Notes under the pieces: model-generated
The model's database searches: none
What the model was told of the DNA's origin: nothing
What the model saw: the letters and a program-made list of their open reading frames with translations, nothing else
Assembly (NCBI GenBank): GCA_001303705.1
Contig: LJUI01000084.1
Location: 1-14,277, forward strand
DNA: 14,277 nucleotides
Direction: 5' to 3'
DNA from: a candidate division TA06 bacterium SM23_40
GTDB taxonomy: Bacteria > LJUI01 > SM1-40
In this document: in pieces, positions 1-14,187 of the stretch
How positions within the stretch are numbered: position 1 is the stretch's first letter
Layout: each line of letters opens with the position of its first letter
Program-made: the position numbers and the translations under genes

Positions 1-180
1 GCCATCATGGGACCTGATCAGTACACCCTCCCGGCCGAGACGACAGTGCAACGGCACCTGACTCACACCGTGCCTCCGGCCGCGCCGCTCGGGCTGTACG
101 GGTATCGTTCCCGGATCGGAGTGCCCCCGTCCACGCTCTATGACGAGGACAGCTTCGCGCTCACAATGGTGGCGCCGTAG
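1..180 (+). CDS. C-terminal end of a protein, probably secreted (partial, start outside window)
   Basis: Frame 1 is open from the first base to a TAG at 178-180, giving 59 residues with no start inside the window, so only the tail of the gene is present. The residues read like the end of a beta-sandwich module: an LPAETTVQRHL stretch, then VPPAAPLGLYGYRSRIG, then a final DEDSFALTMVAP. The pattern 'VP..AP.G.Y.Y...(V/I)G.(Y/P)P....D.DSF' is one I associate with C-termini of secreted proteins from candidate-phylum bacteria; this is recall, not a search. The reading is supported by a strong hairpin terminator about 80 nt after the stop. Function and full domain content cannot be told from this fragment. 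Confidence 0.6.
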   Translation, partial: AIMGPDQYTLPAETTVQRHLTHTVPPAAPLGLYGYRSRIGVPPSTLYDEDSFALTMVAP

Positions 181-382: not shown

Positions 383-408
383 ACGAGCGCCTCACGTGAG
401 GCGCTCGT
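383..408. repeat. Perfect 26-nt palindrome (bidirectional terminator stem or protein site)
   Basis: Positions 383-408 equal their own reverse complement with no mismatch; the centre is CTCACGTGAG. It lies between the plus-strand gene ending at 180 and the minus-strand array ending at 463, the expected place for a shared terminator of convergent transcripts. Neither flank has a clear T tract (ATCTCTCC on the plus side; CACTTGTTATGG reading minus), so a symmetric protein-binding site is also possible. Confidence 0.5.
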
Positions 409-462: not shown

Positions 463-732
463 CTACGATTTTGCAAGTAGGTGCTGCAGCTGCTCCGTGA
501 GTCGGTGGACTTCGCGCTGCGTCTCTTCGCTCAGCATTATCCAGAAGAGCTCCGGGGTCATCTTGCGGTCGATCGTGGAGGAGAAGACGCGAACGATGTC
601 CCGGCGCGCCGGCTCACTGAGGTTATTCCACGCATTCAGGATGCGAAAATCGAACAGTTCCTCTTTGCGCCGTTCGAATCCGCTTCGCCTGTCATCGCCC
701 TTCCGTCTATCCTCCATTTCCTCGCTACCCAT
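463..732 (-). CDS. Small RR-motif protein, paralog 1 of 3 (unknown function)
   Basis: An 89-residue protein read on the minus strand. ATG at 732 is preferred because a GAGGG lies about 8 nt upstream; a GTG at 768 would add 12 residues. The N-terminus carries three basic-acidic pairs in register (EDRRKGDDRR then SGFERR, residues ~7-22). A conserved region follows: DFRILNAWNNLSEPARRDIV, an LFWIMLSEETQREV segment, and a short polar tail ending LLAKS. It aligns without gaps with the proteins at 778-1257 and 1440-1730 from the RR motif to the end of the SEET block. No signal peptide or membrane segment is visible, so it is probably cytoplasmic. Triple [DE]RRxG motifs occur near the N-termini of varied bacterial regulators, but I know no assigned role. 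It is the last gene of the three. Confidence 0.8.
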   Translation of the reverse strand: MGSEEMEDRRKGDDRRSGFERRKEELFDFRILNAWNNLSEPARRDIVRVFSSTIDRKMTPELFWIMLSEETQREVHRLTEQLQHLLAKS

Positions 733-777
733 GGCTCTGCCCTCATCGAAGTGACGCCACGTCACCACCGTCTGTGG

Positions 778-1257
778 CTAGGTTGTACGCGCTTTTCCCC
801 TCTTCTTCTGTTCCGATGCGTGGGCTGCAGATTTCTGGCGGATCTCCCGCTTCGTCTCCTCGCTCAGCCTGTTCCAGAGCTTTCTGTAGGAGAGCGGCTG
901 ATCGAGGGACGACCCGAGAGCCTGGACGATGTCTTCTCGGGCCTCCTTGCTCAGATGCTCCCACGCCGGCGGTATCTCGAATTCGTGGACGGCTGATCTC
1001 CTCCGCTCGAAGCCCTTGCGGCGATCTGCTCCCTTCCTCCGCTCGGTTCCGTCCCAGATGCCAGTCGTCGATGTGACCTCGCCCGCACCCTCGGCCCCGA
1101 GAGAAGCCGCGAGCAGGCCTTCCGCATAGTCGCCGAGGGAGGTGCGGATCGCCCGAAGCTCGGCCACGATCGCATCCAACTGGAGATCCATCTGGGTGAG
1201 CATCTCGTAGATGGAGCGCAGCTGATTGACGGTCTCAGGAGGAGCCTCGATCGTCAT
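778..1257 (-). CDS. RR-motif protein with coiled-coil N-terminus, paralog 2 of 3 (unknown function)
   Basis: A 159-residue minus-strand protein, ATG at 1257, TAG stop at 778-780. The ribosome site is weak (GGGGA about 12 nt upstream). It is the longest of the three paralogs because it adds an N-terminal region of ~70 residues. Residues ~9-42 (NQLRSIYEMLTQMDLQLDAI onward) have the hydrophobic spacing of a coiled coil, suggesting dimerisation. After a small Gly/Ala-rich linker comes WDGTERRKGADRR then KGFERRR, followed by the shared domain (EFEIPPAWEHLSKEAREDIV, then LWNRLSEETKREI) and a Lys-rich tail. A candidate promoter lies 88 nt upstream (1345-1373), so it may also be transcribed separately from the gene before it. 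No recognised enzyme motif, signal peptide or membrane segment is present. Confidence 0.85.
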   Translation of the reverse strand: MTIEAPPETVNQLRSIYEMLTQMDLQLDAIVAELRAIRTSLGDYAEGLLAASLGAEGAGEVTSTTGIWDGTERRKGADRRKGFERRRSAVHEFEIPPAWEHLSKEAREDIVQALGSSLDQPLSYRKLWNRLSEETKREIRQKSAAHASEQKKRGKARTT

Positions 1258-1344
1258 GGTCGGTCATTCCCCGGAAGCGGTAGATTACAGCGGTCTCATC
1301 TGCCGAACAACACCGAGAGAGGGCCTGTACGGCGACTCGAGTAC

Positions 1345-1373
1345 AAACTAACCTCCGGCGGTTGCAGTGTCAA
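1345..1373 (-). promoter_or_regulatory. Candidate sigma70-type promoter for paralog 2
   Basis: Reading the minus strand, TTGACA (1368-1373) is followed by a 17-nt spacer and TAGTTT (1345-1350). The -35 box is perfect; the -10 box keeps only the T, A and final T. It points to the gene starting at 1257, predicting a leader of about 80 nt. Confidence 0.4.
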
Positions 1374-1384
1374 GAGGGGGAGGG

Positions 1385-1442
1385 TGAAACATCATGCGCA
1401 GGCCGCCGTGAAGGCGTCTTCCATCTGCGAGTCCGTGTTTCA
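1385..1442 (-). other. Nested hairpin at the stop codon of paralog 3
   Basis: TGAAACA (1385-1391) pairs with TGTTTCA (1436-1442). Inside it CGCAG pairs with CTGCG, and CGCC pairs with GGCG around a GTGAA loop. The element begins on the minus strand exactly at the TGA stop of the 1440-1730 gene. There is no U tract after it, so it may be an mRNA-processing or stability element rather than an intrinsic terminator. A chance origin is not excluded. Confidence 0.35.
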
Positions 1443-1730
1443 GTCACCCGTTCTCCCGCCGGCAGGAGTGATCTCCTCGATCTCGTTCTTTGTCTCCTGG
1501 CTCAGCATGGCCCAGAGCAGGTCCCGAGGCAGTGGTCTGCTGATGAACGAGGTGAGAACCCGTGCGATCTCCTCTCGTGCCCGCTCGCTCAGGAAATCCC
1601 AGTGTCTCAGGATCTGGAACTGCTCTACCGCCCCAGCGCGCCGATCAAGACCCGACCGTCGTTCCTCCCCCGTTCGCCGATCCATCCCGTCCCACGTTCT
1701 CGGTGCTTCCTTCAGCTCTTTCTCCGCCAT
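1440..1730 (-). CDS. Small RR-motif protein, paralog 3 of 3 (unknown function)
   Basis: A 96-residue minus-strand protein. The start is well fixed: on the minus strand ACAGGAGGACAACCGATG places AGGAGG seven nt before ATG 1730, although the frame stays open to 1886. The protein opens MAEKELKEAPRTWDGMDRR, completing the triple motif with TGEERR and SGLDRR. The shared domain follows (QFQILRHWDFLSERAREEIA, then LLWAMLSQETKNEIEEI) and a short tail ending GGRTGD. It is the promoter-proximal gene of the array, 182 nt before paralog 2. Conserved positions across all three copies are the RR pairs, a Trp before 'LS', the Ala-Arg pair, and LW/FW..LS.ET..E. No function can be assigned. Confidence 0.85.
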   Translation of the reverse strand: MAEKELKEAPRTWDGMDRRTGEERRSGLDRRAGAVEQFQILRHWDFLSERAREEIARVLTSFISRPLPRDLLWAMLSQETKNEIEEITPAGGRTGD

Positions 1731-2096: not shown

Positions 2097-2125
2097 ACTA
2101 TAGTGTGCTCTCCGCCCACTGTCAA
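2097..2125 (-). promoter_or_regulatory. Strong sigma70-type promoter for the RR-motif gene array
   Basis: Reading the minus strand, TTGACA (2120-2125), a 17-nt spacer, then TATAGT (2097-2102): a perfect -35, optimal spacing and 5/6 of the -10. The predicted transcription start near 2090 lies about 360 nt before ATG 1730, with no other gene in between. Confidence 0.7.
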
Positions 2126-6960: not shown

Positions 6961-7415
6961 GTGAGGGGGTCGAAGGCGGCAGGGGAGCCGATGAGAGCAC
7001 GACGCCTCCCGAGGATGTTTCCTCTGAGGAGGAGCGCCGGTCTCCGACCGAGGATAGATCCGAGACCAGGGATGAGCAGAAAGAGGAGAGTGAGTCGGGA
7101 GTTACTTCCGGTGAGGAGCAGATTGAGGTCCCGCCGGCCTCGTTCATCTCATTGGTCGTGAGCTTGGCGACGTCGGCAGTAGCCCATCTCGGGTTCATGC
7201 CGGACCCGGTGTCGGGGAAGACGGTGCAGCACCTGGAAATGGCACGGCACGACATAGATCTGCTCGGCATTCTGAGGGAGAAGACAGCGGGGAATCTGGA
7301 GGCGGAGGAGGAACGGCTGTTGGAGGAGATTCTCTCCGACCTGAGACTGAAGTTTGTGCGCATTCGCGAAGAGAGGGGCTCGTCGTCGCACGGCGAGGGA
7401 GGCGGGGATGCTTGA
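6957..7415 (+). CDS. DUF1844 family protein
   Basis: A 152-residue protein starting at the ATG that overlaps the alr stop. Residues ~1-62 are acidic and Glu/Ser/Arg-rich, probably disordered. The DUF1844 domain follows at ~65-140: PPASFISLVVSLATSAVAHL, GFMPDPVSGKT, a HLEMARHDIDLLGILREKT segment, then EEERLLEEILSDLRLKFV. The family is small, helical and of unknown function; members are common in proteobacteria and several candidate phyla. The hydrophobic helix (FISLVVSLATSAVAHLGF) is short for a membrane span. ATGA coupling to alr suggests co-expression, but I know of no shown functional link. Confidence 0.85.
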   Translation: MSEGVEGGRGADESTTPPEDVSSEEERRSPTEDRSETRDEQKEESESGVTSGEEQIEVPPASFISLVVSLATSAVAHLGFMPDPVSGKTVQHLEMARHDIDLLGILREKTAGNLEAEEERLLEEILSDLRLKFVRIREERGSSSHGEGGGDA

Positions 7416-7465
7416 ATGCCGGCGTGCTCATCCTGTCTTCCAACGCGCCGAAAGGAGAAAGGCCC

Positions 7466-8563
7466 ATGGAATGGAGAGTGCGAACCTGCGTGACGGCCAT
7501 AGGACTGGGTACGGCGCTGCTCCTGGTCGGGTCGCTGTGGCCGGAGCTTGGATCGGCAGCGGAGGCTGGTGATGCAGGTCGCGTGCACGAGGTCAAGAAG
7601 GGAGACACCCTCTGGGATCTCTCGACCTCATACCTGCGCGATCCCTTTCTCTGGCCTGCTATCTGGGAGGCCAACCGAAGTCATATAGCTGATCCGCACT
7701 GGATCTACCCGGGGCAGCGGTTCCTCATTCCGCCGATGTACGTGCCGCCGGAGGCTAAGGTGCCGACCGAGGCCGAGGCGCCGCCCGAGGAACCGATCGA
7801 AGTCGAAGAGACTGCGGCGGTAGACTTCGTGACCGAGGCAGCCCCTCAGCTTGCCGTGGCGCGTGACCTCGCTCACAAGGCCGGCTTTATCACCGACGTC
7901 GAGCTCCCCGGCGGATTCATCGTCGCCTCAATACAAGACGAACGTGAGGATCTGATCAGGCACGATGTGGTGTACATCAATCTCGGCAGCGATGACGGCA
8001 CTATGGTCGGCGATTGCTTCACCGTGTACAGGCTCGACCGTAACGTACGTCATCCGAAGACCGGCAGGAATCTCGGACGGCTTGTTCGCGTTATAGGCCA
8101 GCTCTGTGTGACCGCGGTTCAGGAGCGGACATCGACCGCTATGATTATGGAGTCCTACGACCCGCTTCGCGTGAAAGACAGGATCACGCCCTATCGAGAG
8201 ATATGGATACAAGCAGACGAGAGGCCGGTCATCACGGATCTCGCAACGGAGGGCGTCCTCGTCACAACACGTGATGAGAAGGACGTGATCTGGCCGTTCG
8301 ATGTCGTCTATATCGATAAGGGGTCGCATGACAGCATCGTGCCCGGAGACATATTCACTGTCCATCAGCCGGGGGAGCAGGTACGCGATCCAGCGTCTGG
8401 AGAGACGCTGCGGCTTCCGGAGCAGATCGTCGGCAGCATACAGGTGCTCTCGGTCAACGAAGCTACGGCTGCGGCCTATGTGGCAGCCACGAGTGAGACG
8501 CGGGAGATGAAGGTAGGGGATAGGGTGCGTCTGTACGCAAAGATGCCGCCGGCCGGTGAATAG
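7466..8563 (+). CDS. LysM-domain envelope protein with a duplicated C-terminal domain
   Basis: ATG 7466 is chosen: AGGAG lies about 8 nt upstream and a signal peptide follows (hydrophobic core ~8-25, likely cleavage near LGSA-AEA at ~31). The frame stays open further upstream, but that would bury the signal. Length 365 residues. A single LysM spans ~39-91 (VHEVKKGDTLWDLSTSYLRD, LWPAIWEANRSHIADPHWIY, PGQRFLIPP), which binds peptidoglycan glycan. A Pro/Glu-rich linker (~92-125) follows. The rest contains two copies of a ~95-residue domain (~149-250 and ~263-360), aligned on HDVVYINLGSDDGTMVGDCF and FDVVYIDKGSHDSIVPGDIF, then on a V.G...V..V.E..A.A..... block and a final VKDRI/VGDRV. I do not recognise this domain by name. 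Likely a periplasmic, wall-associated protein; exact role unknown. Confidence 0.8.
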   Translation: MEWRVRTCVTAIGLGTALLLVGSLWPELGSAAEAGDAGRVHEVKKGDTLWDLSTSYLRDPFLWPAIWEANRSHIADPHWIYPGQRFLIPPMYVPPEAKVPTEAEAPPEEPIEVEETAAVDFVTEAAPQLAVARDLAHKAGFITDVELPGGFIVASIQDEREDLIRHDVVYINLGSDDGTMVGDCFTVYRLDRNVRHPKTGRNLGRLVRVIGQLCVTAVQERTSTAMIMESYDPLRVKDRITPYREIWIQADERPVITDLATEGVLVTTRDEKDVIWPFDVVYIDKGSHDSIVPGDIFTVHQPGEQVRDPASGETLRLPEQIVGSIQVLSVNEATAAAYVAATSETREMKVGDRVRLYAKMPPAGE

Positions 8564-8664
8564 AGGGGACGACCAGTCATTGCCGGAGGAGGGGCTGTCG
8601 CGGGCCCGTCACGACGAGTTGCCGGGTCGGCGGTTCACATCATGAAATGCGGAGGGACGGGGAG

Positions 8665-9129
8665 ATGGAAAAGCAAGAGGCACTGAGAAAGATCTACCTG
8701 TTCGAGGGGCTCACTCCAGATGAGCTCAATAAGATGATCCAGATCGGCGAAGAGAAGAAGTACAGCGGAGAAGATGTGATCATCAAAGAAGGAGACCCGG
8801 GGGACGGGTTCTACGCCGTGCTCTCGGGTGCTGTCCGGATCAGCGTCATAGTCCCGGGCGTGGGTGAGGAGGCACTTGCGATCTTGCGTGAAGGGGACTA
8901 CTTCGGTGAGATGGCTCTGATCGATGACCATCCGCGATCGGCCACCGCGATCTCCCACGGTGATTCGGTCCTGCTCAAGATCGAGAGTGAGGCGTTCAAG
9001 AAGCTTCTGTTCGAGGAACTCGGCCTCGCATACAAACTCCTCTGGGTCTTCGCGAAGACTCTCTCATCGAGGCTCAGAGAGACGGATGAGCGTCTCAAGG
9101 GGATGATGAGTCTCGCTAAGTCATTCTAG
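8665..9129 (+). CDS. Stand-alone cyclic-nucleotide-binding domain protein
   Basis: ATG 8665 is chosen because GGAGG lies 9 nt upstream; ATG 8647 has no good ribosome site. Length 154 residues. Nearly the whole protein is one CRP/PKA-type cNMP-binding domain: LRKIYLFEGLTPDELNKMI, then IIKEGDPGDGFYAVLSGAVR, then the phosphate-binding cassette FGEMALIDDHPRSATA with E82 and R91, the residues that hold the ribose 2'-OH and cyclic phosphate. These intact residues argue for true cAMP or cGMP binding. After the C helix there is only a charged helical tail (LLWVFAKTLSSRLRETDERL) and no helix-turn-helix, so it is not a CRP-like transcription factor. It probably acts by binding a partner, which is unidentified. 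It is last in the alr unit, 101 nt after the LysM gene. Confidence 0.85.
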   Translation: MEKQEALRKIYLFEGLTPDELNKMIQIGEEKKYSGEDVIIKEGDPGDGFYAVLSGAVRISVIVPGVGEEALAILREGDYFGEMALIDDHPRSATAISHGDSVLLKIESEAFKKLLFEELGLAYKLLWVFAKTLSSRLRETDERLKGMMSLAKSF

Positions 9130-10556: not shown

Positions 10557-11738
10557 ATGTCGCTGATGGATCGGGCGATCCTCATGCTGCTCGACGGGGT
10601 CGGTGTGGGAGCTCTGCCCGATGCGGACGACTACGGTGATGGCGGCAGTAATACGCTGGGTAATCTGGCGCGTGCGGTGGGCGGTATCGATCTGCCGCAT
10701 CTTGAGCGCCTCGGGCTCGGATGGATCGAGCCGATTCCCGGTATCGAGAGGATACTGCAGCCGCAGGCCGCGTTCGGGAAGATGGCGGAGCGGTCCGCGG
10801 GGAAGGACAGCATCTCCGGCCACTGGGAGATTGCGGGCCTCGTTCTGAGCGAACCATTTCCCACCTATCCGAATGGGTTCCCGCCAGAGATAGTCGAGCC
10901 CTTCGAGCGCGCAATCGGGAGGAAGGTGCTGGGGAACGAGCCGGCCTCCGGGACGGAAATCATCGAACGATTGGGGCCGAAGCACCTCTCCACTGGCCGG
11001 CCTATCCTGTACACATCCGCGGATAGCGTTTTCCAGGTCGCTGCCCACGAGAGCGTCATTCCGGTCGAGGAGCTCTATCGCTACTGTCAGCTGGCGAGGG
11101 ATCAGCTCGTCGGCCGGCACATGGTTGCCCGCGTGATCGCGCGGCCATTCATCGGATCGCCTGGTGCTTTCAGGCGAACGGAACGGCGCAAGGATCTCTC
11201 AGTGCCGCCACCCGGAGAGACTCTTCTCGATCTCCTCGTCGCTCACCGGTATTCCGTAGTCGGTATCGGGAAGGTAGACGAGCTCTTCGCCGGCCGGGGC
11301 ATCACGGAGTCCGTTCACACGGTCAGCAATGACGAGGCGCTCGATGCCGCGTTGGCAGCGATGGGGAGACTCGACCGCGGACTCATCTTTGTGACGCTCG
11401 TCGAATTCGATATGCTCTGGGGGCACAGGAATGACTGCGAGGGGTTCTATGCCGCGCTCAGGGCGTTCGACAGCCGCATCCCCGAGATAGTCGGACTGCT
11501 GCGCGAGCGAGATGGCCTATTCATCACTGCTGACCACGGCAACGACCCGACAACGCCGAGCACAGATCACTCGCGGGAGTACGTGCCGCTCCTCGTCGCT
11601 GGTCCCCGGATCGCTCAGGGCAGGGATCTGGGAACGCGCGAGACGTTCGCCGATCTGGGGGCGTCGATAGCCGAGGCGCTGGGCGTAGTGGGGCTGCCGA
11701 GCGGGAAAAGCTTCCTCACAGAGGTTCTGCATGGCTGA
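10557..11738 (+). CDS. deoB: Phosphopentomutase
   Basis: A 393-residue alkaline-phosphatase-superfamily enzyme that interconverts (deoxy)ribose-1-phosphate and the 5-phosphate. ATG 10557 follows a strong GGGGAGGG. The N-terminus has the metal-site motif LLDGVGVGALPDADDYGD (D13). The di-Mn ligands expected from the Bacillus enzyme are all visible: D285 and H290 (EFDMLWGHRND), D326-H327 (TADHGND) and H338 (STDHSREYVP). The cap domain includes IGSPGAFRRTERRKDLSVPP. The phospho-acceptor motif reads GKDSISGHWE where GKDTxTGHWE is usual, putting Ser at position 85 where Thr85 is the phosphorylated residue in B. cereus. Ser can serve as acceptor in related phosphatases, so activity is still expected. 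Its stop overlaps the start of cdd by 8 nt. Confidence 0.95.
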   Translation: MSLMDRAILMLLDGVGVGALPDADDYGDGGSNTLGNLARAVGGIDLPHLERLGLGWIEPIPGIERILQPQAAFGKMAERSAGKDSISGHWEIAGLVLSEPFPTYPNGFPPEIVEPFERAIGRKVLGNEPASGTEIIERLGPKHLSTGRPILYTSADSVFQVAAHESVIPVEELYRYCQLARDQLVGRHMVARVIARPFIGSPGAFRRTERRKDLSVPPPGETLLDLLVAHRYSVVGIGKVDELFAGRGITESVHTVSNDEALDAALAAMGRLDRGLIFVTLVEFDMLWGHRNDCEGFYAALRAFDSRIPEIVGLLRERDGLFITADHGNDPTTPSTDHSREYVPLLVAGPRIAQGRDLGTRETFADLGASIAEALGVVGLPSGKSFLTEVLHG

Positions 11739-12138
11739 TACACGTACGATCGACCGGGAAGCCCTCCTCGCGCACGCCAGGGAGGCGAGAGATCGCGCGT
11801 ACGCGCCCTACTCGGAGTACCGCGTGGGGGCCGCGGTCTTCACCGGCTCAGGTAAGGTGTTCGTCGGTGCGAACGTGGAGAACGCGTCGTATGGCTTGAC
11901 CGTATGCGCCGAGCGAGTTGCCGCCTGGGCGGCGGTGGTCGCCGGGGAGCGCACCCTGATCGCCATGGCAGTGGCTGGCGAACCGGGCAAGCGCTCGGTC
12001 CCCTGCGGCGCCTGCCTTCAGGTGCTCAGCGAGTTCGGTCCAGATATGGAGATCATCGTAGAGAACGAATCCGGGGCGATAGAAGTCCACCGGCTCAGTG
12101 AGTTTCTCCCCGAGGCGTTCTCTCTCGACGCTGAATGA
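11731..12138 (+). CDS. cdd: Cytidine deaminase
   Basis: A 135-residue protein, the size of the homotetrameric bacterial enzymes such as that of B. subtilis. It converts cytidine and deoxycytidine to uridine and deoxyuridine. The zinc site is complete: C59 with the proton-shuttle E61 (TVCAERVA), and C92 and C95 (PCGACLQVL). Substrate-binding blocks are AYAPYSEYRVGAAV and GANVENASYGLTVCAER. ATG 11731 lies inside the end of deoB (ATGGCTGA), so translation is probably coupled. The next gene, deoC, starts 11 nt after its stop. Confidence 0.95.
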   Translation: MADTRTIDREALLAHAREARDRAYAPYSEYRVGAAVFTGSGKVFVGANVENASYGLTVCAERVAAWAAVVAGERTLIAMAVAGEPGKRSVPCGACLQVLSEFGPDMEIIVENESGAIEVHRLSEFLPEAFSLDAE

Positions 12139-12149
12139 GGGTATAATCG

Positions 12150-12821
12150 ATGACCACGGCTCCTGGGGAACGAATCGACCTCGCGAGGCTTATCGATCAT
12201 ACGCTACTTCGCGCCGATGCCACGCAGAGCGATGTCGAGAGGGTGTGTGACGAGGCCATACAGTGGGGTTTCGCTGCAGTCTGTGTCAATCCCTGGTATG
12301 TGAAGCTGGCAAAGCGAGAGCTGGCCGGCTCCTCCACCAAGGTCTGTACTGTCGCCGGGTTTCCTCTCGGCGCCACTCTGAGCGCGGTCAAGGCGCATGA
12401 GGCGGAGCTCGCCGTGAGCGAAGGCGCGCAGGAGATCGATATGGTGATGAACCTGGGGGCGCTCAAGTCAGGCCTATCGGACGTCGTGAGCGATGACATC
12501 CGCGCTGTCGTCGTCTCCGCAGGGCCCAGCGCGATCGTGAAGGTCATCATCGAGGCGTGCTACCTCACGGATGAGGAGAAGGTGCTGGCCTGCCGGCTGA
12601 TTCAGGAGTCAGGTGCGGACTTCGTCAAGACCTCGACAGGCTTCGGCACCGGCGGCGCGACAGTCGAGGATGTGCGTCTGATGCGGCGCTCGGTGGGGCC
12701 TGAGCTGGGAGTGAAGGCGGCCGGGGGGATCGCAGACCGCAGGACCGCGCTCAGTCTCGTTGAGGCCGGGGCCACGCGTATCGGATCGAGCAGGAGCCTG
12801 GCGATCGTCGGTGAGGCCTAG
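12150..12821 (+). CDS. deoC: Deoxyribose-phosphate aldolase
   Basis: A 223-residue class I aldolase, short single-domain type. It splits 2-deoxyribose-5-phosphate into glyceraldehyde-3-phosphate and acetaldehyde. The Schiff-base lysine is K160 (ADFVKTSTGFGTGGAT). The second active-site lysine is K189 (GVKAAGGI) and the aspartate is D97 (EIDMVMNLGALKSG). Other family blocks are LIDHTLLRADATQSDV, CVNPWYVKLA, VAGFPLGAT and VKVIIEACYLTDEEK. ATG 12150 has GAGGG 8 nt upstream. It sits between cdd and the nucleoside phosphorylase, consistent with a polycistronic deo-type operon. Nothing unusual is seen in the catalytic residues. Confidence 0.95.
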   Translation: MTTAPGERIDLARLIDHTLLRADATQSDVERVCDEAIQWGFAAVCVNPWYVKLAKRELAGSSTKVCTVAGFPLGATLSAVKAHEAELAVSEGAQEIDMVMNLGALKSGLSDVVSDDIRAVVVSAGPSAIVKVIIEACYLTDEEKVLACRLIQESGADFVKTSTGFGTGGATVEDVRLMRRSVGPELGVKAAGGIADRRTALSLVEAGATRIGSSRSLAIVGEA

Positions 12822-12882
12822 AGTTCGGGTGCGGTACCGCAAGGTCGCGATCAGAGCCGCGACCGCAATCGAGGGGGAGGGC

Positions 12883-14187
12883 GTGACCGCCTACGAGATC
12901 ATCCGCAAGAAGCGGGACGGGGGCGAACTCACGGGGGAAGAGATCGAGTACTTCGTGCGATCGTACACCGGAGGTGAGATCCCCGACTACCAGGCTGCCG
13001 CACTATTGATGGCGATCGTCCTGATCGGCATGTCGGCCGGGGAGACGGCCGATCTGACGATGGCGATGATGCGATCCGGCGACGTGATCGATCTCTCCGA
13101 TATCCCCGGCGTAAAGGTGGACAAGCACAGCACAGGAGGCGTGGGGGACAAGGTCTCGCTCGTCCTCGCTCCTCTTGTCGCCGCCTGCGGTGTGCCGGTA
13201 CCGATGGTCTCGGGACGAGCCCTGGGGCACACGGGCGGCACACTCGACAAGCTCGAAGCGATTCCAGGTCTGCGCACCGACCTTTCGGTGCGCGAGTTCA
13301 GAGATCTGCTCCGCGGCATCGGTGTGGCGATGATCGGTCAGACCGACGAGATGGTACCTGCCGATCGCGAGCTGTACGCGCTCAGGGATACGACGGCAAC
13401 TGTCGAGTCGATACCCCTCATCTCAGCGAGTATCATGTCGAAGAAGATTGCGGAGGGGGCCGACGCGCTCGTGCTCGATGTGAAGACGGGGAGCGGTGCG
13501 TTCATGCAGGAGGAGGCGATGGCGCGGGAACTCGCACGAGCGATGATCGATATCGGGGTCAGAATGGGGAAGCGGGTTCGGGCGCTCATCACAGACATGG
13601 ATCAGCCGTTGGGGAGGGCTGTCGGCAATGCTGTAGAGGTCGCGGAGGCGATCGAGACGCTGCGCGGCGAAGGCCCCGACGATCTGCGCGCTCTCTGTCT
13701 GGCGCTCGGCTCAGAGATGCTCCGCATGGGAGAACGCGCTGCGTCCGAGGAGGAAGCGCTCACGCTGCTCGCCGACGCGATCTCGAGCGGCAGGGCTCTC
13801 CAGCGATTTCGCGAGATGGTCGCCGCTCAGGGGGGAGATGCGCGGGTCATCGATGATCCGTCGCTGTTGCCGAGCGCTCCCCTCCAGATGGAGGCGCGGG
13901 CCGAGGCCTCGGGCTACGTGCAGGGCATTGAGACTCGCGAGGTGGGACAGGCAGCCGCAGAGCTGGGGGCAGGGCGTGCGACGAAGGAGTCATCGATAGA
14001 CCACGGCGTGGGGATCATGATTGAGAAGAAGGTCGGAGATCATGCGGAGAAGGGCGAGCCTCTGGCGCGCATCCTGGCGCGGAGCGAACAGGCGGGCATA
14101 CGCTGTGTCCAGCGGATCGTGGACGCCTATGGCCTTGGCGATCGGCCGGGATCGGTTCCACCCCTGGTGCGGAGTACGGTCGAATAA
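12883..14187 (+). CDS. pdp: Pyrimidine-nucleoside (thymidine) phosphorylase
   Basis: GTG 12883 is chosen because the family start (TAYEIIRKKRDGGELTGEEI) follows directly and GAGGGGGAGG lies just upstream. The frame is open back to 12760, but those residues overlap deoC and look non-homologous. Length 434 residues, close to the Bacillus enzyme. It phosphorolyses uridine, deoxyuridine and thymidine to base plus (deoxy)ribose-1-phosphate. The phosphate site is K81-HSTGGVGDKVSL. Further blocks are VPMVSGRALGHTGGTLDKLE, IPLISASIMSKKIAEGADAL and VLDVKTGSGAFM. The C-terminal beta/alpha domain has GRATKESSIDHGVGIMIEKK. The pyrimidine-specific type (pdp) is favoured over deoA by length and by the presence of cdd; the two cannot be fully separated by eye. 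It is 61 nt after deoC and the last gene of the unit. Confidence 0.9.
   Translation: MTAYEIIRKKRDGGELTGEEIEYFVRSYTGGEIPDYQAAALLMAIVLIGMSAGETADLTMAMMRSGDVIDLSDIPGVKVDKHSTGGVGDKVSLVLAPLVAACGVPVPMVSGRALGHTGGTLDKLEAIPGLRTDLSVREFRDLLRGIGVAMIGQTDEMVPADRELYALRDTTATVESIPLISASIMSKKIAEGADALVLDVKTGSGAFMQEEAMARELARAMIDIGVRMGKRVRALITDMDQPLGRAVGNAVEVAEAIETLRGEGPDDLRALCLALGSEMLRMGERAASEEEALTLLADAISSGRALQRFREMVAAQGGDARVIDDPSLLPSAPLQMEARAEASGYVQGIETREVGQAAAELGAGRATKESSIDHGVGIMIEKKVGDHAEKGEPLARILARSEQAGIRCVQRIVDAYGLGDRPGSVPPLVRSTVE

Follow-up and report, generated by a model that had tools for sequence, protein, structure and literature searches.

Three tandem paralogs with an internally duplicated, predicted helical domain in candidate division TA06 bacterium SM23_40

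In candidate division TA06 bacterium SM23_40, three consecutive minus-strand genes, here termed P1, P2 and P3, encode a real, old, selected and undescribed protein family of ordinary scale. The window, i.e. the whole stretch of DNA that was analysed, is a complete contig of 14,277 bases belonging to a 2.88-Mb genome in 189 contigs that is ~90 % complete; features of the locus are collected in Table 1. A first-pass annotation had described three neighbouring homologous genes whose products align without gaps, and both its coordinates and frames proved right. Ungapped identities over 75 positions amount to 33/75 (P1-P2), 34/75 (P1-P3) and 34/75 (P2-P3), i.e. 44-46 %, and with the RR stretch left out the ungapped BLOSUM62 scores of 109-121 per pair lie about 10 standard deviations above shuffled sequences (20,000 shuffles, peaking at 22-28; z ~10 each). 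Furthermore, all invariant residues listed beforehand are found in P1, P2 and P3. Searched against its own genome, P1 recovered P2 at 2e-17 and P3 at 8e-17, with no credible match beyond these two; a hit at E 0.06 (C88:29901) falls where an SMC-like ORF of 883 aa takes up the locus and was treated as noise. Translation of P1 probably starts at the ATG at 732, preceded by GAGGG, rather than at the GTG at 768.

Table 1. Features of the P1-P3 locus, in positions of the window
Feature	Position	Strand	Remarks
P3 (96 aa)	1440..1730	-	leads the array; a pair of W-LS units follows the RR hexapeptides
P3 start	ATG at 1730		GGAGGACAACCG lies in front, read from the sequence as an optimal Shine-Dalgarno
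P3, triple [DE]RR hexapeptides	1639..1682	-	pattern match
P2 (159 aa)	778..1257	-	coiled coil at the N-terminus, then a disordered linker, the RR hexapeptides and a pair of W-LS units
P2, triple [DE]RR hexapeptides	1001..1044	-	pattern match
P1	463..732	-	89 aa from ATG 732, 101 aa from GTG 768; RR hexapeptides with a pair of W-LS units
P1, triple [DE]RR hexapeptides	668..711	-	pattern match
Sigma-70-like promoter TTGACA-17-TATAGT (candidate)	2097..2125	-	faces the array; 11/12 matches, consensus match only
Hairpin terminator just beyond P1 (candidate)	383..408	-	26 bases forming a perfect palindrome; modest T-tail, CACTTGTTAT

Each protein carries the same 29-residue unit, hW..LS..[AT][RK].[DE]I, twice. 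When the domain was slid against itself, an offset of 29 gave a mean local score of 32.1 versus 12.3 for the runner-up offset, and alignment of the two halves of each protein yielded z values of 4.1, 5.1 and 3.4. Thus, the ~50-residue domain proposed at first is indeed shared by all three proteins, but is really a tandem duplication of one shorter unit. The AF2 model, built from the three sequences, predicts helices at residues 29-32, 38-49, 58-64 and 67-75, with pLDDT ~75-90 there; their order of short, long, short, long parallels the two 29-residue units, and the LS.E segment probably caps the N-terminus of a helix. The RR region was poorly modelled, and since just three sequences entered the alignment, overall confidence stayed modest (mean pLDDT 71.9 and 67.5; pTM 0.52 and 0.35). 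At this medium confidence, the prediction agrees with the small helical family suggested previously. In a fold comparison with the PDB, neither VIA-align nor Foldseek returned a match above background for these medium-confidence models (best Foldseek E 4.5 and 0.34; VIA Z 3.3, rmsd 4.8 over 70 residues).

Relatives were sought in ~620 other genomes in total, which are related to the source genome at the domain level only, the latter apparently being the sole member of its phylum there. Even with permissive E-values, Pfam, NCBIfam and PHROGs offered no credible family for P1-P3, consistent with the earlier statement that no function has been characterised, and in Pfam P2 attained sub-cut-off scores only. 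Single-sequence searches of 59 other genomes yielded nothing credible; one match at E 0.005 (G038) was weak and contained an internal stop. An HMM of the three copies, run against 386 genomes of many phyla, detected no W-LS relative outside the array, as its matches, at 2.5e-4 or weaker, occurred near the chance rate or covered the RR strip alone. Four of the phyla that rank nearest in RpoB, represented by 132, 7, 95 and 1 available genomes, yielded no match to the domain and one to the RR strip, beside an N-gapped contig. Two scans of GTDB contigs, with patterns taken from different stretches, returned 164 and 36 pattern matches with 0 confirmed, and no relative was present in viral contigs, phages and plasmids or, by sequence, in the PDB. 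Because the comparison set is devoid of same-phylum genomes, this absence elsewhere is weak evidence on the true range of the family.

We tentatively propose that P1-P3 form a family confined to one lineage and made up of co-expressed helical adaptor or scaffold subunits, which are small, soluble and cytosolic and originated by nested duplication. A 29-residue helical-hairpin unit (a helix ending in hW..L, an N-capping S and a second helix, ..E[AT][RK].[DE]I) would first have doubled, generating a compact four-helix domain behind a strip of [DE]RRxGx hexapeptides that is flexible and of mixed charge; a tandem triplication of the gene would have followed, and one copy, P2, would have gained or kept a coiled coil. 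This coiled coil, previously reported as an addition to one copy, is borne out by the heptad pattern of P2 residues 9-42, where 9/10 a/d positions are hydrophobic, and by a helix predicted at residues 7-55 with block-mean pLDDT of 73-88 as far as residue 50. Made from a single transcription unit, the three proteins would act jointly as adaptor or scaffold subunits: their W-LS domains could dock on one another or on a common partner, the P2 coiled coil may dimerise the assembly, and the arginine strip might provide electrostatic contacts with a partner, a nucleotide or an anionic surface; that is, we infer oligomerisation, partner binding and a ligand. The proteins contain no Cys, almost no His and no hydrophobic or membrane segment, and their charge is near neutral, which speaks against simple DNA binding as well as a redox, metal or membrane role. 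The adaptor function was deduced largely from the fact that no catalytic residues are evident, and is a guess, but the best at hand. By our ranking, an adaptor or scaffold would be likeliest, a strip binding a signal ligand would come next, and nucleic-acid binding would be less likely, with the remainder left to something else.

The strip, [DE]RRxGx[DE]RRxGx[DE]RR, is a hexapeptide repeat. From the triple [DE]RRxG motif described in the first-pass annotation, the three RR pairs stand, but xG follows only the first two in all copies, the third pair reading ERRKE, ERRRS and DRRAG. Within the own genome, the complete triple pattern is confined to the three array genes, and the remaining two-RR matches fall in unrelated or wrong frames. 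Across the 386 genomes, the coded triple pattern occurs in 10, source genome included, with some of these pattern matches being low-complexity or out-of-frame. The same stretch is found in unrelated proteins of other bacteria, for instance in a homocitrate-synthase-like ORF (L035) and a transglycosylase-like ORF (L041), both assigned by eye, and hence is not the family hallmark as which it had been offered. Instead, the strip reads as a recurrent charged element that is not by itself family-defining. Neither Pfam or NCBIfam nor the open literature searched with the motif strings gave a name for it. In another of the 10 genomes, a 281-aa GGDEF diguanylate cyclase ORF (L011) bears a triple [DE]RRxG stretch at its N-terminal part, and in further ones of them tiny proteins (L030, L031, L037), which have no Pfam match, consist almost entirely of [DE]RRxGx hexapeptides. 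These four share the [DE]RRxGx[DE]RR spacing with P1-P3, which in the cyclase is likewise N-terminal; unlike P1-P3, they are devoid of the W-LS domain.

An alternative, which we regard as unlikely, is that P1-P3 are signalling accessories that recognise a cyclic dinucleotide or some other anionic signal by binding it to their arginine/aspartate hexapeptides and relay it to a partner via the W-LS domain. Such a role would fit the very similar triple-RR stretch at the N-terminus of the diguanylate cyclase and the similar stretches that constitute the tiny RR-only proteins, yet the stretch also occurs in proteins outside cyclic-dinucleotide signalling (L035 and L041). Moreover, the PilZ signature combines RxxxR with D/NxSxxG on a beta barrel, whereas the RR pairs of P1-P3 are spaced R-x4-R in proteins predicted to be all-helical; a PilZ-type c-di-GMP receptor was discarded, as Pfam gave no PilZ match for P1-P3. 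More doubtful is the idea that an undescribed, duplicated 29-residue W-LS fold, present in one phylum-level lineage only, would be joined to a widespread arginine hexapeptide ligand-binding strip within a three-subunit hetero-complex. Less probable again is an association with RNA or DNA through the arginine-rich strip and the small helical domain, a suggestion made at the outset that found no support: although the proteins are small and the RR-rich stretch carries a local charge of +1.8 to +4.8, a D/E accompanies each R pair, the overall charges of -1.3, +0.8 and -2.4 are near neutral or slightly acidic, and neither a nucleic-acid-binding family nor a convincing DNA-binding fold was among the matches.

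Together with the candidate promoter and terminator flanking them, P1-P3 look like one transcription unit. There are 2 promoter-like sites in the region versus 0.4 expected; the terminator count is not above chance, and in positions 1-2400 no inverted repeat was found besides the perfect one of 13 bp. A riboswitch in the 366-nt leader was rejected, as no Rfam element matched at gathering score and the fold was no more stable than that of shuffles (z -0.36). Upstream of the array lies a divergent OmpA/CarboxypepD_reg/PEGA gene, and beyond the terminator comes the 3' end of a convergent gene for a secreted protein, which is cut off by the contig end 462 bases past P1; the gene context on this side is limited to this stretch. 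The DNA of window positions 7-179 (+), which encodes the C-terminal tail of the secreted-type protein at the left edge, is 77 % identical to positions 1070-1242 (+) of L027, where contig C128 encodes the C-terminus of a beta-helix-like protein rich in repeats; this C-terminal module hence recurs in the source genome. Farther along the window, a gene for a LysM domain fused to a FlgT_C-like region (7412-8563, +) adjoins a DUF1844 gene, a stand-alone cyclic-nucleotide-binding domain protein of 160 aa (8647-9129, +) is flanked by the LysM/FlgT_C-like protein and an aldehyde dehydrogenase, and a nucleoside-salvage cluster, deoB-cdd-deoC-deoA, spans 10557-14187 (+). That small, co-transcribed genes of restricted distribution might belong to a self-contained cassette of the defence, toxin-antitoxin or mobile-element type seems very improbable here, given that the neighbours (alr, mazG, deoB, cdd, deoC and deoA) are ordinary chromosomal genes, that there are three homologous copies instead of a two-component pair, and that PHROGs and phage, plasmid and viral-contig collections gave no match.

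Selection was measured among the paralogs P1-P3 of this one genome. Identity between paralog pairs was 0.59-0.62 at first, 0.64-0.71 at second and 0.37-0.47 at third codon positions, and the Nei-Gojobori method gave dN ~0.5 and dS of 1.2, 1.4 and saturated, with dN/dS ~0.35-0.45. GC by codon position is gene-like as well, being highest at the third (0.71-0.77) and 0.39-0.49 at the second. Based on the codon-position pattern and dN/dS, the minus-strand frames are coding and the antisense ORFs by-products; since dS is high or saturated, the duplications are old, in keeping with the initial view of an array that is both old and maintained. The converse, that P1-P3 are spurious ORFs antisense to genuine plus-strand genes, could draw on the plus strand, where ORFs of 171 and 209 aa overlap the array, but is for practical purposes refuted by the minus frames, whose third positions are least conserved and richest in GC, besides the strong Shine-Dalgarno at P3 and the stops in at least one copy of every antisense frame, none of which exceeds the minus-strand proteins in conservation.

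Among known families, DUF1289 (PF06945) shows a weak likeness to one W-LS unit of P2, but the match was rejected, as it spans 19 residues of P2 only and scores 13.3 bits versus a gathering cut-off of 27 (E = 0.075). DUF1289 possesses a conserved cysteine motif, whereas P1-P3 lack any Cys. Likewise, DUF7347 (PF24038) attained 15.4 bits versus a cut-off of 27.6 over 37 residues of P2 only, being absent in P1 and P3.

P1-P3 alone neither overturn nor open a major question. They do, however, provide a clear example of a small protein family that came about via nested duplication, with the unit doubled and the gene tripled, and was retained under selection in a lineage without sampled relatives, and they point to a [DE]RRxGx strip recurring across unrelated bacterial proteins. 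The FESNov catalogue (PMC10849945) gathers novel, lineage-specific gene families of uncultivated taxa, and P1-P3 are, by the same type of measure, without homologue in reference databases. FESNov families are, like P1-P3, short, selected, homologue-poor and from an uncultured lineage; unlike them, P1-P3 are a set of three paralogs known from a single genome. Coding selection across several genomes is a further mark of such families, and for P1-P3 dN/dS compares the paralogs. In these terms, P1-P3 are a further orphan small-protein family of an uncultured lineage, comparable in kind to the families of that catalogue.
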